A DNA stretch of 64,000 bases, from assembly GCF_902150045.1 (NCBI RefSeq), contig NZ_CABFVU010000001.1:2108001-2172000 (forward strand), written 5' to 3'. Source of the stretch: Chitinophaga polysaccharea. GTDB taxonomy: Bacteria > Bacteroidota > Bacteroidia > Chitinophagales > Chitinophagaceae. The notes under the pieces are model-generated. The model worked only from the letters and a program-made list of their open reading frames with translations, was not told where the DNA came from and did not search any database. A program made the position numbers and the translations under genes. Positions 19,704 to 57,478 of this stretch are shown piece by piece. Position 1 is the first letter of the stretch, and each line of letters starts with the position of its first letter.

Positions 19704-19918
19704 GTCGCCTCCGGCGACTGCAGCGGATTTTGTCTGACTCAGGATTAAACTGATTAGGCTGATTGGATTACTTTGGATTTAAAATGATTAGGGGAGATTT
19801 AAGCGCATACTTTCGCTTATTTCTCCCCTAGCCTTTTATAAAATCATTACAAAATCAAATCAGCATAATCAGCCTAATCAGTTTAATCAGTTTAATCCTG
19901 AGTCAGACAAAATCTGCT
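19704..19918. repeat. Paired dispersed-repeat arms without a gene (empty element)
   Basis: Left arm 19720-19765: gcagcgg, then the core TTGTCTGACTCAGGATTA (19730-19747), then 9-nt units of CTGATTAnn type. The right arm (about 19855-19918) is the same sequence on the minus strand with one extra 9-nt unit; the first 31 nt of both arms are identical. A 6-bp hairpin with 3-nt loop (19704-19718) precedes the left arm. The 90-bp centre holds an imperfect 17-bp hairpin (19789-19805/19814-19830, taggggaga ... tctccccta). The arms touch the ends of two converging genes, S1/P1 nuclease and PfkB kinase. Confidence 0.8.
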
Positions 19919-52495: not shown

Positions 52496-54547
52496 ATGAT
52501 AAAATCCATCCTTACCGTAACCGGCCTGGCTGCCGTTACCTGCTTTGCAGCATGTAACCAGGGACAGAAACAGCCCAGCGATGCCAACTCCCACACACCC
52601 GATGCAGTAGCCGCTAATGTAGACAGTACCGTGAGCCCCACACAGGATTTTTTTGATTATGCCAACGGCGGCTGGATAAAACGCAATCCCATACCCGCAG
52701 AATATAGTTCATGGGGTATTGGTAATCTTGTACAGGAAGAATTGTACAAACGCCTGCGCATCATCAACGAAAAGGCAGTGGAAAATCCTGCCGATCCAAT
52801 CTCTAAAAAAATTGCCGCTTTCTGGACAAGCGGTATGGATTCCGTTCGCATCAACCAGGAAGGCATAAAGCCTATTGAAGCTGAACTGAAAGCCATTGAT
52901 GCAGTTACTACTATTCCACAACTGGTACAAATAGCCTCTAAACTGAACATGAACACAGGCGCTTTCTGCAGCCTGTACATAGGCCAGGACGCCAAAAACA
53001 GCGAGGTGATTGCCGTTCAGCTGGGCCAGGGCGGATTAGGCTTACCTAACCGCGACTACTACTTTAACACCGATGCACGTACCACCAACATAAGAAATGC
53101 TTATCCCGCACACATTGCCAAAATGCTTCAATTTGTTGGTTACGACAGCACCTCCGCTAAAAAGGCCGCTGCCGGCATTGTGCAGCTGGAAACCAGCCTG
53201 GCTAAAAACAGCCGTAAACTGGAAGCACTCCGCGACCCGGAAGCCAACTACCACAAAATGGCAGTGACTCAGCTCAATAAAATTGCCGGGAATATTGATT
53301 GGAATGATTTCATTAAACAACAAGGCATCAACAAATTTGCCGATACTGTGATTGTGGGTCAGCCGGAATTTTACACCAATCTGAGCAACGTGGTTAAGTC
53401 GCAACCACTTCAAACCTGGAAAGACTACCTCAAATGGAACCTGATCAACGCTGCGGCCTCACATCTCAGCGATACCATTGCCAACACCGACTTCGCCTTT
53501 TATGGAACTCTTCTAAAAGGACAAGACAAACAGAAACCCCGCTGGAAACGAGTGCTGGATGCTGAAGAAGGCGCTATGGGCGAGGCATTGGGACAATTGT
53601 TCGTAAAAGAATTCTTTAACACCACCGCCAAAAAAAGATATGAAAACCTGGTAGAAGAAATACGTGCCGAACTGAAAACACGCATCGAGCACCTCGACTG
53701 GATGAGCGACAGCACCAAGCAGAAAGCATTGTATAAACTGTCGAAGATCACGAAGAAAGTTGGTTATCCCGATAAGTGGAAGGATTTTTCCGCAATGGAT
53801 ATCAAGGAGCAATCCTATCACCAGAACATAGAGGCAGCACAACAATGGTGGCAGAACTACCAGATCAGCAAACTGGGTAAACCGGTAGACCGCACCGAAT
53901 GGGATATGACCCCACAAACATACAACGCCTACTATAACCCCAGCAACAATGAAATAGTGTTACCCGCAGGTATCTTCACCGTTCCCGGTAAACGCGATGA
54001 AGAACTGGATGACGCCATCGTTTATGGCTACGCCGGTGCCTCCACCATTGGCCACGAAATCACACACGGCTTCGACGATGAAGGTCGCCAGTTTGATGCT
54101 GCCGGAAACCTCAAAAGCTGGTGGACAAAGGATGATGAGAAAAAATTCAATGAGCGCGCAGCTGTAATGGTGAATCAGTTTAACAACTACGTAGTGGTAG
54201 ATACCTTACGCATCAACGGTAAAGCCACACTCGGTGAAAACATCGCCGACCTTGGCGGTATCCTGCTGGGTTGGGAAGCGTTCAAAAAAACGGAGCAGTT
54301 CAAAAAGAATGAGAAAATTGCCGGCTACACTCCATCACAACGTTATTTCATGGGTTACGCACTGGGCTGGCTGGGACATTCCAAAAAGGAATCCCTCGCC
54401 AGGCAGGTGCTTACAGATGTGCATTCTCCTGCCAAGTTCAGGGTGAATGGACCGTTTGCGGATGTAGATGCCTTCTACGAAGTATACGGCGTAAAACCCG
54501 GGGATGCTATGTATAGGCCGGATAGCGCAAGGGTACGCATTTGGTAA
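52496..54547 (+). CDS. M13 (neprilysin-like) metallopeptidase, lipoprotein
   Basis: A 683-residue zinc endopeptidase. Lipoprotein signal: MIKSILTVTGLAAVTCFAAC with the Cys in FAAC (about residue 20). The PDFFDYANGGW-type start of M13_N is at about 51 (TQDFFDYANGGWIKRNPIP). The catalytic HExxH is in IGHEITHGFDDEG (about 519-531), the third ligand in ENIADLGGILLGW (about 580-592), and NAYYNPSNNEIVLPAGI precedes them. It cleaves oligopeptides in the periplasm. It is 10-20 residues longer than mean bacterial members, with a Gln/Ser/Pro-rich linker after the lipid anchor. The dispersed-repeat arm starts 2 bp after the stop and the terminator is beyond it. Confidence 0.94.
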   Translation: MIKSILTVTGLAAVTCFAACNQGQKQPSDANSHTPDAVAANVDSTVSPTQDFFDYANGGWIKRNPIPAEYSSWGIGNLVQEELYKRLRIINEKAVENPADPISKKIAAFWTSGMDSVRINQEGIKPIEAELKAIDAVTTIPQLVQIASKLNMNTGAFCSLYIGQDAKNSEVIAVQLGQGGLGLPNRDYYFNTDARTTNIRNAYPAHIAKMLQFVGYDSTSAKKAAAGIVQLETSLAKNSRKLEALRDPEANYHKMAVTQLNKIAGNIDWNDFIKQQGINKFADTVIVGQPEFYTNLSNVVKSQPLQTWKDYLKWNLINAAASHLSDTIANTDFAFYGTLLKGQDKQKPRWKRVLDAEEGAMGEALGQLFVKEFFNTTAKKRYENLVEEIRAELKTRIEHLDWMSDSTKQKALYKLSKITKKVGYPDKWKDFSAMDIKEQSYHQNIEAAQQWWQNYQISKLGKPVDRTEWDMTPQTYNAYYNPSNNEIVLPAGIFTVPGKRDEELDDAIVYGYAGASTIGHEITHGFDDEGRQFDAAGNLKSWWTKDDEKKFNERAAVMVNQFNNYVVVDTLRINGKATLGENIADLGGILLGWEAFKKTEQFKKNEKIAGYTPSQRYFMGYALGWLGHSKKESLARQVLTDVHSPAKFRVNGPFADVDAFYEVYGVKPGDAMYRPDSARVRIW

Positions 54548-54548
54548 T

Positions 54549-54602
54549 GCAGCGGATTTTGTCTGACTCAGGATTAAACTGATTACGCTGATTACGCTGA
54601 TT
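54549..54602 (+). repeat. Left arm of the dispersed repeat (GxxExxY unit)
   Basis: gcagcgg followed by gatt, the core TTGTCTGACTCAGGATTA (54559-54576), then AACTGATTA and two CTGATTACG-type 9-nt units, ending in ctgatttta. From TTG onward 46 nt match the reverse complement of the right arm (55154-55206) with one mismatch. It begins 2 bp after the M13 stop codon. Confidence 0.85.
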
Positions 54603-54648
54603 TTATTTTTTTGATTTTTGATTTTTGATTTTCATTGGGTATTATTTT

Positions 54649-54677
54649 AAGAGCCGGATTTTATCCGGCTCTTTGTT
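54649..54677 (+). terminator. Terminator between M13 gene and GxxExxY gene
   Basis: aagagccgga (54649-54658) pairs perfectly with tccggctctt (54664-54673), with a 5-nt loop and a T-rich tail (tgttttg). It lies 102 bp after the M13 stop, beyond the repeat arm, inside the candidate element. Confidence 0.85.
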
Positions 54678-54735
54678 TTGATTATTAGAATGAGCTAAAT
54701 TAGAGCCATTGTTTGTTTAACCTAATATATAATGT

Positions 54736-55125
54736 ATGATTAATCCAGATTATAAGCATTCCGAGCTTACCGGAAAGATTATTGGTTGTGCGATGCAAGT
54801 ACATCGCATACTTGGATCAGGATTCCAGGAAGTAATTTACCAACGGGCATTAGCCATTGAAATGAGTGAAAATCAAATTCATTTTGTGAGAGAAAAAGAG
54901 ATTCCTTTATATTATAAAGGACAACATGTAGAAGGCAGAAGGGCCGATTTCATTGTAGAAGACGTTGTGGCTGTAGAGCTAAAGGCCTTAACAGTAACAG
55001 AACAAGTCCATTTATCCCAGATTAAAAGCTATCTCGAAGCATATAATGTAGAAACCGGATTACTTATTAACTTTGGCCGGCCAAGCCTCGACTTTAGAAG
55101 ATTAATCAACGGAAACTATAAATGA
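54736..55125 (+). CDS. GxxExxY family protein (PD-(D/E)XK-like)
   Basis: A 129-residue cytosolic protein. The family motif is G29-F-Q-E32-V-I-Y35. A PD-(D/E)XK nuclease pattern is visible: Asp71 in GRRADFIVED, and E81-L-K83 in VVAVELKAL, then a helix (EQVHLSQIKSYLEAY). Family length is about 125, so it is complete. The biochemical activity is not established, but the intact acidic/Lys triad suggests nuclease activity. It is enclosed by inverted arms of the dispersed repeat, and its codon use is AT-richer than the neighbours, which suggests independent origin. Its last codon overlaps the start of the CBM9 gene (ATGA, 55122-55125), so the two are translationally coupled. Confidence 0.92.
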   Translation: MINPDYKHSELTGKIIGCAMQVHRILGSGFQEVIYQRALAIEMSENQIHFVREKEIPLYYKGQHVEGRRADFIVEDVVAVELKALTVTEQVHLSQIKSYLEAYNVETGLLINFGRPSLDFRRLINGNYK

Positions 55126-56210
55126 AAAATTTTTCTTTCAATACACAAAAAAAAATCAGTGTAATCAGCGTAATCAGTTTAATCCTGAGTCAGACAATTT
55201 CCGCGCAAAGCGCGAAGCCGTTCAAAGGAACACCCCGGCATTACGTATGCCAGGAAACGAAAGATAAGGTGGTAATCGATGGCAAATTGGAAGAAGCCGC
55301 CTGGCAGCAAGCCTCATGGACCAACGATTTCCAGGATATTGAAGGCGATGCCAAACCAGCGCCCGCACTGCGTACCAGGGTGAAAATGATGTGGGATCAA
55401 CAGTATCTTTATATTGCAGCCACACTTCAGGAACCTCATATCTGGGGAACGCTGACAGATCATGATGCCATCATTTTCCGGGATAATGATTTTGAGGTGT
55501 TTATAGATCCCGAGGGAGATACCCACCAATATTACGAAATAGAGATCAACGCTTTAAATACCGTAATGGACCTTTTCATGGGAAAGCCGTACCGCAATAT
55601 GGGAGAGGCGCTGATAAACTGGGACACTAAAGGAATTATCACCGCCGTGCATATAAACGGTACCATTAATAACCCATTGGATACGGATAAAGAGTGGACA
55701 GTGGAAATGGCCATCCCTTTCAGTGCGCTTAGCTTTTTTAACAGAGAGCAGCGGCCACAGGAAAACACCCTTTGGCGGATCAATTTTTCCCGGGTGGAGT
55801 GGGATACCGATATTAAGAACGGAAAGTATGTAAAACTGAAGCGGCCAGAACACAACTGGGTATGGTCGCCACAGGGTATTGTGAATATGCATGCACCGGA
55901 ACGGTGGGGGTACCTGCTGTTTACCAGCAAGGCTAATACTGCTTTTCAATTACCCCCAACGGAGGAAGCCCGTCAATACCTCTGGCAGATATACAGCGCA
56001 CAACTGGAGTACAGGCAAGCCAACGGGCGGTATGCCAGCAATTTAAAAGCGCTGAAGATCCCTGAAAAACAAACAGGTCCTAACGGCCAGATATATACGC
56101 TGTCGATGGAAGGTATTTCGTTGCAATATAATGCCAGCGTTACCGGAAGCAATTTTAGCGGTTCTGTAAATATCAACCAGGAAGGTAAAGTATATAACAA
56201 TAGAAAATAA
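55122..56210 (+). CDS. Exported CBM9-like carbohydrate-binding protein
   Basis: A 362-residue protein. The signal peptide (about residues 1-29, KKISVISVISLILSQTISA) is encoded by the right arm of the repeat element: each 9-nt unit gives ISV/ISV/ISL and the core gives ILSQT. The mature part is a CBM9-type beta sandwich (about 45-275: VVIDGKLEEAAWQQASWT, RVKMMWDQQYLYIAATLQEP, FRDNDFEVFIDPEGDTHQYYEIEINALN, EWTVEMAIPFSALSF), followed by a short helical/beta tail (280-362). It binds glycans, possibly with enzymatic function in related proteins. It starts inside the GxxExxY gene (ATGA overlap) and lies 5 bp before the GHL10-like gene, so it is part of a glycan operon with the next gene. Confidence 0.85.
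   Translation: MKNFSFNTQKKISVISVISLILSQTISAQSAKPFKGTPRHYVCQETKDKVVIDGKLEEAAWQQASWTNDFQDIEGDAKPAPALRTRVKMMWDQQYLYIAATLQEPHIWGTLTDHDAIIFRDNDFEVFIDPEGDTHQYYEIEINALNTVMDLFMGKPYRNMGEALINWDTKGIITAVHINGTINNPLDTDKEWTVEMAIPFSALSFFNREQRPQENTLWRINFSRVEWDTDIKNGKYVKLKRPEHNWVWSPQGIVNMHAPERWGYLLFTSKANTAFQLPPTEEARQYLWQIYSAQLEYRQANGRYASNLKALKIPEKQTGPNGQIYTLSMEGISLQYNASVTGSNFSGSVNINQEGKVYNNRK
55154..55206 (-). repeat. Right arm of the dispersed repeat, inside the CBM9 gene
   Basis: On the minus strand: core TTGTCTGACTCAGGATTA (ending at plus 55197), then 9-nt units, then a T/A-rich tail toward GxxExxY. On the plus strand the units run in frame with the CBM9 gene and encode its signal peptide. The outer hairpin cgcgc-aaa-gcgcg (55202-55214) starts 4 nt past the core. 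Confidence 0.85.
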
Positions 56211-57316: not shown

Positions 57317-57370
57317 AAAATATTTGGGGAGATAAAAGCAATTACCTGCTTATATCTCCCCAAATATTTT
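57317..57370. terminator. Strong hairpin between two converging glycan genes
   Basis: The 18-nt arms 57317-57334 and 57353-57370 (core atttggggagata / tatctccccaaat) pair perfectly; five more pairs (aagca/tgctt) follow inside. The plus-strand tail is TTTT AACC. It lies 10 bp after the GHL10-like stop and serves both converging genes. The centre ggggagat...tctcccc resembles the hairpin in the 19.7-kb element. Confidence 0.75.
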
Positions 57371-57430
57371 TAACCCACAGGAAGAAAAATTATTCGATTA
57401 TATCCCACTAATCTTTCAGATCCAAAGTGA

Positions 57431-57478
57431 TCAAACAAATCAGCATAATCCTGAGTCAGACAACATCCGCTTAAAGCG
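57431..57478 (-). repeat. Solo arm of the dispersed repeat at the GH92 stop
   Basis: On the minus strand: a 4-nt spacer, the core TTGTCTGACTCAGGATTA (ending at plus 57446-57463), then one CTGATT unit and tttgtttga. A small hairpin cgct-taa-agcg (57468-57478), whose loop is the GH92 stop codon, lies 4 nt outside the core. There is no facing arm nearby. 21 nt (atcaaacaaatcagcataatc) are shared with the 61.5-kb copy. Confidence 0.8.

Follow-up and report, generated by a model that had tools for sequence, protein, structure and literature searches.

RAYTs are single-copy, vertically inherited genes flanked by the repeats that they spread (PMC3116915, PMC8049555). A second system to be considered is the 23S rRNA intervening sequence (IVS), in which an S23p open reading frame (ORF) occupies the loop of a stem and, in Coxiella, tandem 7-nt units adjoin the ORF; a role of the IVS ORF in mobility has been proposed but not shown (PMC4990558). 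The locus described here carries a gene for a GxxExxY protein, a common bacterial family with no role assigned, between two inverted repeat arms. We propose, with a probability of roughly 0.6, that it belongs to a REPIN-like system in which the PD-(D/E)XK nuclease GxxExxY drives the spread of gene-less palindromes and these replace terminators. The idea that GxxExxY drives the copying derives from the analogy with RAYTs, as the gene is likewise single-copy, vertically inherited and repeat-flanked. The locus lies in a 64,000-nucleotide stretch of Chitinophaga polysaccharea DNA, the whole of which is referred to as the window. Its features are the following.

52496–54547, + strand: gene for an M13 peptidase, which borders a conserved insertion site (site A) on its upstream side
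54552–54616, + strand: left arm of the element that holds the gene; the core TTGTCTGACTCAGGATTA is at 54559–54576 and is followed by TGATTACGC units
54649–54679, + strand: intrinsic-terminator-like hairpin AAGAGCCGGAT-TTT-ATCCGGCTCTTTGTTTT, read from the sequence and paired in the predicted fold
54736–55125, + strand: GxxExxY gene, 129 aa, PD-(D/E)XK nuclease fold (TIGR04256, PF13366, structure model)
55140–55204, − strand: right arm, inverted, with the core at 55180–55197
55122–56210, + strand: gene for a CBM9-domain protein whose predicted signal peptide has a hydrophobic part, MKNFSFNTQKKISVISVISLILSQTISAQS, that the right arm encodes

Both arms (54552–54616 and 55140–55204) are 65 nt long; they are 89% complementary and 523 nt apart, and the 9-nt unit TGATTACGC is repeated within them. 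The left arm starts about 5 bp past the M13 peptidase stop codon, and the hairpin at 54649–54679 is placed between this arm and the GxxExxY ORF. The right arm overlaps the downstream gene. In the CBM9 protein, the predicted signal peptide (ISVISVISLILSQTISAQ, window positions 55122–55214) takes its hydrophobic core from the arm, and the same arm-encoded core is seen in the relatives G059, G053 and G094 as well as in the relic of G003. Judged from these sequences, the use of the right arm as a CBM9 signal peptide is likely an exaptation, and this role may aid the retention of the arm.

The 129-aa ORF was identified as GxxExxY by TIGR04256 (E = 2.9e-38) and as PDDEXK_3 by PF13366 (E = 9e-37). 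Its AlphaFold2 model (pLDDT 91.4) has PD-(D/E)XK topology. No solved relatives were found by sequence. By structure, the best solved match is 4ic1 (SSO0001; Foldseek E = 1.6e-4, Z = 10.0, rmsd 3.2 over 99 residues), a Cas4-type nuclease, and restriction enzymes, Holliday-junction resolvases and lambda exonuclease come next, with tRNA-splicing endonucleases low in the list. His, GxG, Glu, Asp, ExK and Gln are invariant over alignments of 46 and 26 sequences, and Tyr is invariant or nearly so; both the fold of the PD-(D/E)XK superfamily and its D..ExK motif are present. The model predicts a Cas4-like nuclease, although one without a four-cysteine iron–sulphur site, as the protein has a single cysteine. 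Membership in a defence system was dismissed after a PADLOC search without a match, and so was a phage origin, for which there was just one weak PHROG match of unknown function.

Elements with the same ends and no gene are found elsewhere in the window.

19722–19918, no strand assigned: gene-less element, 43-nt inverted arms around a central hairpin GGGGAGATTTAAGCG..CGCTTATTTCTCCCC
57317–57463, no strand assigned: one-sided copy, consisting of a hairpin (57317–57370) and a single inverted core (57446–57463)

The core TTGTCTGACTCAGGATTA occurs five times in the window, against an expectation of 0.05, and about 182 times in the genome (about 91 per strand; 7.62 Mb, up to two mismatches), with no match to a reversed-pattern control. 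A sequence-only reading of this DNA had reported 46 nt shared by the arms of the gene-bearing element with one mismatch, which holds when counted from TTGTCTGACTCAGGATTA, and a hairpin-only copy with the same arms at 19.7–19.9 kb, which is the element at 19722–19918; the genome-wide core search that it had proposed returned the copies just given, in most cases as inverted pairs. Inspection of 60 genome loci and the window showed that the cores of a pair lie 34–352 bp apart around a central hairpin of the type GGGGAGAT..ATCTCCCC. A single one of the 32 pairs analysed encloses an ORF of at least 60 aa, and this ORF is the GxxExxY gene, of which the genome has one. Outside the core, an arm resembles its partner in the same copy more than the arms of other copies (0.81 vs 0.66; best of 10,000 permutations 0.73). 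Two arm subfamilies, with AAC or TGA after the core, were distinguished, and at two of the three positions no pair has differing left and right arms. The elements end in GCGGA..TCCGC, and a GTAG/CGTC tag at the foot of the palindrome was not seen. Core variants (TTGTCTTGGAACACTGATTA, TTGTCTTTTCCAGGATTA and TTGTCCTGGAACA) are present beside or within elements at L064, L074, L078 and L101, and are probably older layers or a second family.

Two other candidate drivers were considered and set aside. A Y1/REP transposase is missing from this genome, in which PF01797 gave no match (5 of 14 control genomes were positive). The genome does contain one TIGR02436 four-helix-bundle gene of the S23p family, but the core loci fetched have no such gene in their vicinity. 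Another gene that went unnoticed could still drive the spread of the elements.

The relation between gene and repeats was followed through the relatives by running a query of ten arms against twelve genomes. In all nine relatives with GxxExxY that were searched, the arms of their own gene are multi-copy, with 29–94 matches, the best being on the own arm piece; the gene-less G002 and G006 gave none with this query. Among the 79 genomes of the genus, the site-A core was counted 330, 178, 156 and 132 times in G053, G000, G059 and G094, all of which have an intact gene, and 95, 11 and 9 times in G003, G041 and G079, where the gene is decayed. The other 72 genomes have counts of 0–1. These include some with a decayed site-A gene and a count of zero, and also the intact-gene genomes G049, G050 and G089, whose cores are different and, by the ten-arm query, each multi-copy. 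Core counts and gene status are associated with a Fisher p of 4e-6, which is overstated and only indicative because the genomes are related and not independent. At the level of the order, in other families, copies of the own arms were found in nine of nine gene-bearing genomes (4–63 copies) and in none of four gene-less ones. G003 has no intact gene yet 95 core matches (65 with the ten-arm query), which counts against a nuclease-driven spread; these copies are explained as putative relics. In G059 (L153, L163, L173) two high-copy families coexist, GTCTGAACTGTGATTA, which is like the gene arms, and TTGTCTTTCCCAGGATTA, which is unlike them, a further point against a nuclease-driven spread. At the level of sequence, the gene–repeat association is well supported.

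The gene itself is present in 21 of the 79 genus genomes and, where the flanks can be placed, at two syntenic sites only, with one exception (L118). Site A, between the M13 peptidase and the CBM9 protein, is occupied in this genome and six others examined, G089 being without the CBM9 gene, and decayed remnants were identified there in at least nine further genomes (G003, G041, G079, G010, G092, G061, G045, G080 and G093). Site B is between nuoF and nuoG, judged from the encoded protein ends of the neighbours. The site-B loci (L105–L108, L110, L113–L117, L119 and L120) have arms of the type CGCAAAG/CAGCAAAG, and here GxxExxY is situated inside a respiratory operon. Comparison of the G000 and G053 genes gave dN 0.124 and dS 3.2, synonymous sites being saturated in many pairs, and the sequences indicate that the gene is under purifying selection. 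Conversely, the arms vary by species, with both arms of a locus changing in concert. A left arm scores 33.7 on average against its own right arm vs 15.3 against the right arms of other species. The comparison argues for a static gene, vertically inherited at a fixed site and often decayed there, with the hairpins as the mobile part.

These data bear on the view, taken in the sequence-only reading, that the locus is a classical mobile element whose gene-bearing copy transposes and whose gene-less copies are MITE-like derivatives. The proposed pairing of autonomous and non-autonomous forms stands in so far as a gene form and gene-less forms with shared ends exist; the gene-bearing copy as the mover does not, since none was seen moving in the genus, where the site is fixed and the arms change. 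That some genomes elsewhere in the order have as many as eight GxxExxY genes would suit transposition of the gene. Still, the single gene copy, the two syntenic sites in the genus, the decay in place and the lack of target-site duplications (see below) leave this explanation improbable. The same reading had named as adverse to itself the finding, in all relatives, of one gene with the same arms at the same site and no empty sites. Gene and site are indeed shared, but the arms differ, many relatives are without the gene or hold a relic, and the dispersed copies have clear empty sites. It had likewise named GxxExxY genes entirely without arms elsewhere, and arms are often present at other GxxExxY genes.

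The empty sites were analysed by comparing 12 elements with the two closest relatives, G003 and G041, and clear cases, which the sequence-only reading had suggested looking for, were found in both. The element is absent from seven G003 sites and from all eight G041 sites compared. What stands there is a short hairpin after the stop codon, with a perfect stem of at least 11 bp in 11 of 13 intervals and often a T-rich stretch after it. In this genome, the element occupies the place of the terminator hairpin of the sister genomes with little or no leftover sequence, its outer end mostly a few bases from the stop codon, and no target-site duplication was detected at the 12 sites compared. At five sites G003 also has an element, albeit with its own core. 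For four comparable shared sites, the element of this genome or of G003 is not the closest copy to its counterpart in the other (ranks 20, 10, 10 and 19 of 27), and overwriting or reinsertion has therefore occurred. The sequences thus compared suggest that gene-less hairpins, which have reached about a hundred places in the genome, replace ordinary intrinsic terminators at gene ends. At the tandem gene pair of L058 (1004–1140), the element also replaces the stretch before the start codon of the downstream gene; in the sister genome this stretch resembles a promoter.

Position at gene ends, mostly a few bases from the stop codon and in the place of terminators, is also what would be expected if the elements were ordinary hairpins that terminate transcription strongly or stabilise mRNA, and if selection and recombination had multiplied them without involvement of the nuclease. 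We regard this as very unlikely. Many copies within one species share their arms, core and central hairpin, all of which differ in its sister, the occurrence of the elements tracks GxxExxY, and the presence of the same arms at this gene in many species would be left unexplained.

Arms were then sought across phyla at 109 GxxExxY loci from the genus, the order and named genomes of Bacteroidota, Ignavibacteria, Gammaproteobacteria and Desulfobacteraceae, a set that also takes in records labelled as Planctomycetes and Verrucomicrobia members. Inverted flanking arms with a score of at least 17 were found at 44 of the 109 loci, while 327 distal controls taken at these loci yielded none; the remaining 65 have no clear arms with the threshold used. 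The period of the arm units peaks at 9 nt, and many arms share one type, ACC-RCRRAG-nn-RCRRAG. S23p-family (TIGR02436) genes of the order were surveyed in the same manner, and 10 of 25 loci have inverted short-unit arms vs 0 of 75 distal controls. In the S23p-family loci L243–L272 the arm units measure 7–9 nt, e.g. GTATTTAGTAGTTAGTATTTAGTATT. Similar arms at S23p-family genes imply that arms may capture or tolerate different proteins. The architecture had earlier been likened to that of the rRNA IVS, with the remark that no rRNA is present; the window is indeed rRNA-free, and the likeness is more than superficial because S23p-family genes, too, often have inverted short-unit arms.

This likeness raises the question of an RNA-level element akin to the 23S rRNA IVS, in which RNase III would cut a stem formed by the arms in the transcript, and the protein, too, would act on RNA. 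The predicted RNA folds are very stable, with z = −15.6 for the gene-less copy at 19722–19918 and z = −14.1 for the gene-bearing copy, where the ORF is in the loop of a long stem; covariation of the arms and the S23p genes with similar arms point the same way. However, the element is located outside rRNA (no Rfam family, rRNA included, was above threshold in the 64-kb window), and the protein has the fold of DNA nucleases, though tRNA-splicing endonucleases do figure low in the structural list. A comparison of G-U with A-C mismatches in the arms, which bears on RNA versus DNA selection, comprised few cases only. Altogether, we consider action on RNA the least probable of the alternatives, slightly behind the ordinary terminator.

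The main rival assigns the spread to the host. Replication or repair, by template switching at hairpins, would multiply the palindromes, and GxxExxY, like S23p, would be a passenger or selfish rider profiting from the arms. The S23p-family genes with similar arms (10/25 vs 0/75 controls) agree with such a scheme, and the replacement of hairpins without target duplication is as expected of template switching. Conversely, copy number follows the gene, with no matches in the two and four gene-less genomes mentioned above, the catalytic residues are conserved, and a passenger offers no reason why gene arms and dispersed copies should change together from species to species. A host-driven spread is therefore viewed as unlikely, albeit the strongest of the competing explanations.

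Returning to the nuclease-driven system, we infer that the nuclease copies the hairpins, the protein cutting the arms and driving the copying at the DNA and not the RNA level. The Cas4-like nuclease would recognise the species-specific arm folded as a hairpin or cruciform and would cut hairpin DNA, that is its own elements and terminator hairpins; repair or template switching would then copy the element over the cut hairpin. From hairpin cutting combined with copy-over repair, the replacement of terminators without target duplication would follow, as would the matched arms of each copy and a genome-wide, lineage-wise change of arms. A broader generalisation can be put forward only tentatively and is rather doubtful: small proteins other than HUH enzymes, namely the PD-(D/E)XK nucleases of the GxxExxY family and alongside them the four-helix S23p proteins, might copy a widespread class of hairpin elements, which would spread by taking the place of terminators and other hairpin DNA; the 23S rRNA IVS would then be a special case.

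Through its link to dispersed, species-specific palindromes, the GxxExxY family gains a role that can be tested, and a second enzymatic way to REPIN-like populations, one without HUH transposases, is suggested. By overwriting terminators, selfish DNA would rewire gene ends at almost no cost. The parallel with S23p also opens to direct test whether 23S rRNA intervening sequences were mobile, a question of long standing. In the open-access papers searched, no description of the GxxExxY–palindrome association and no mention of the repeat sequence CTCTGTGTCTCTGTG was found; those that mention GxxExxY do so only as an item in a list, and a search for the Pfam name found none. The combined data point to a system of mobile hairpins that is driven by an enzyme and has not been described before.

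Among known systems, RAYT–REPIN pairs or REPtrons (PMC3116915, PMC8049555, PMC8266576) share with the present one a single-copy, inherited and repeat-flanked enzyme gene that is itself immobile, hundreds of dispersed extragenic inverted hairpin doublets, and compensatory changes between arms. They differ in the enzyme, as the linked gene here is no Y1/HUH enzyme (PF01797) but a PF13366 protein of PD-(D/E)XK fold, and in the elements, which here have long arms of about 9-nt units, show no GTAG/CGTC tag and replace terminators. MITEs, too, are short and non-autonomous, have inverted ends and are related to an element with a gene, whereas here replacement is observed and not insertion, target-site duplications are missing at the 12 sites and no DDE transposase is found inside. 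With Cas4/RecB-type PD-(D/E)XK nucleases (SSO0001, 4ic1) the GxxExxY protein shares the best structural match and a QxxxY motif after ExK; unlike Cas4, it is a protein of 129 aa with one cysteine, and no CRISPR genes were seen around its gene. Finally, the 23S rRNA IVS resembles the gene-bearing element in that a long stem carries the ORF in its loop and, in Coxiella, short tandem units adjoin the ORF. The present element, in contrast, is found outside rRNA, encodes a GxxExxY nuclease fold (TIGR04256/PF13366) in place of the S23p four-helix bundle (TIGR02436), and is accompanied by a large dispersed population of gene-less copies.
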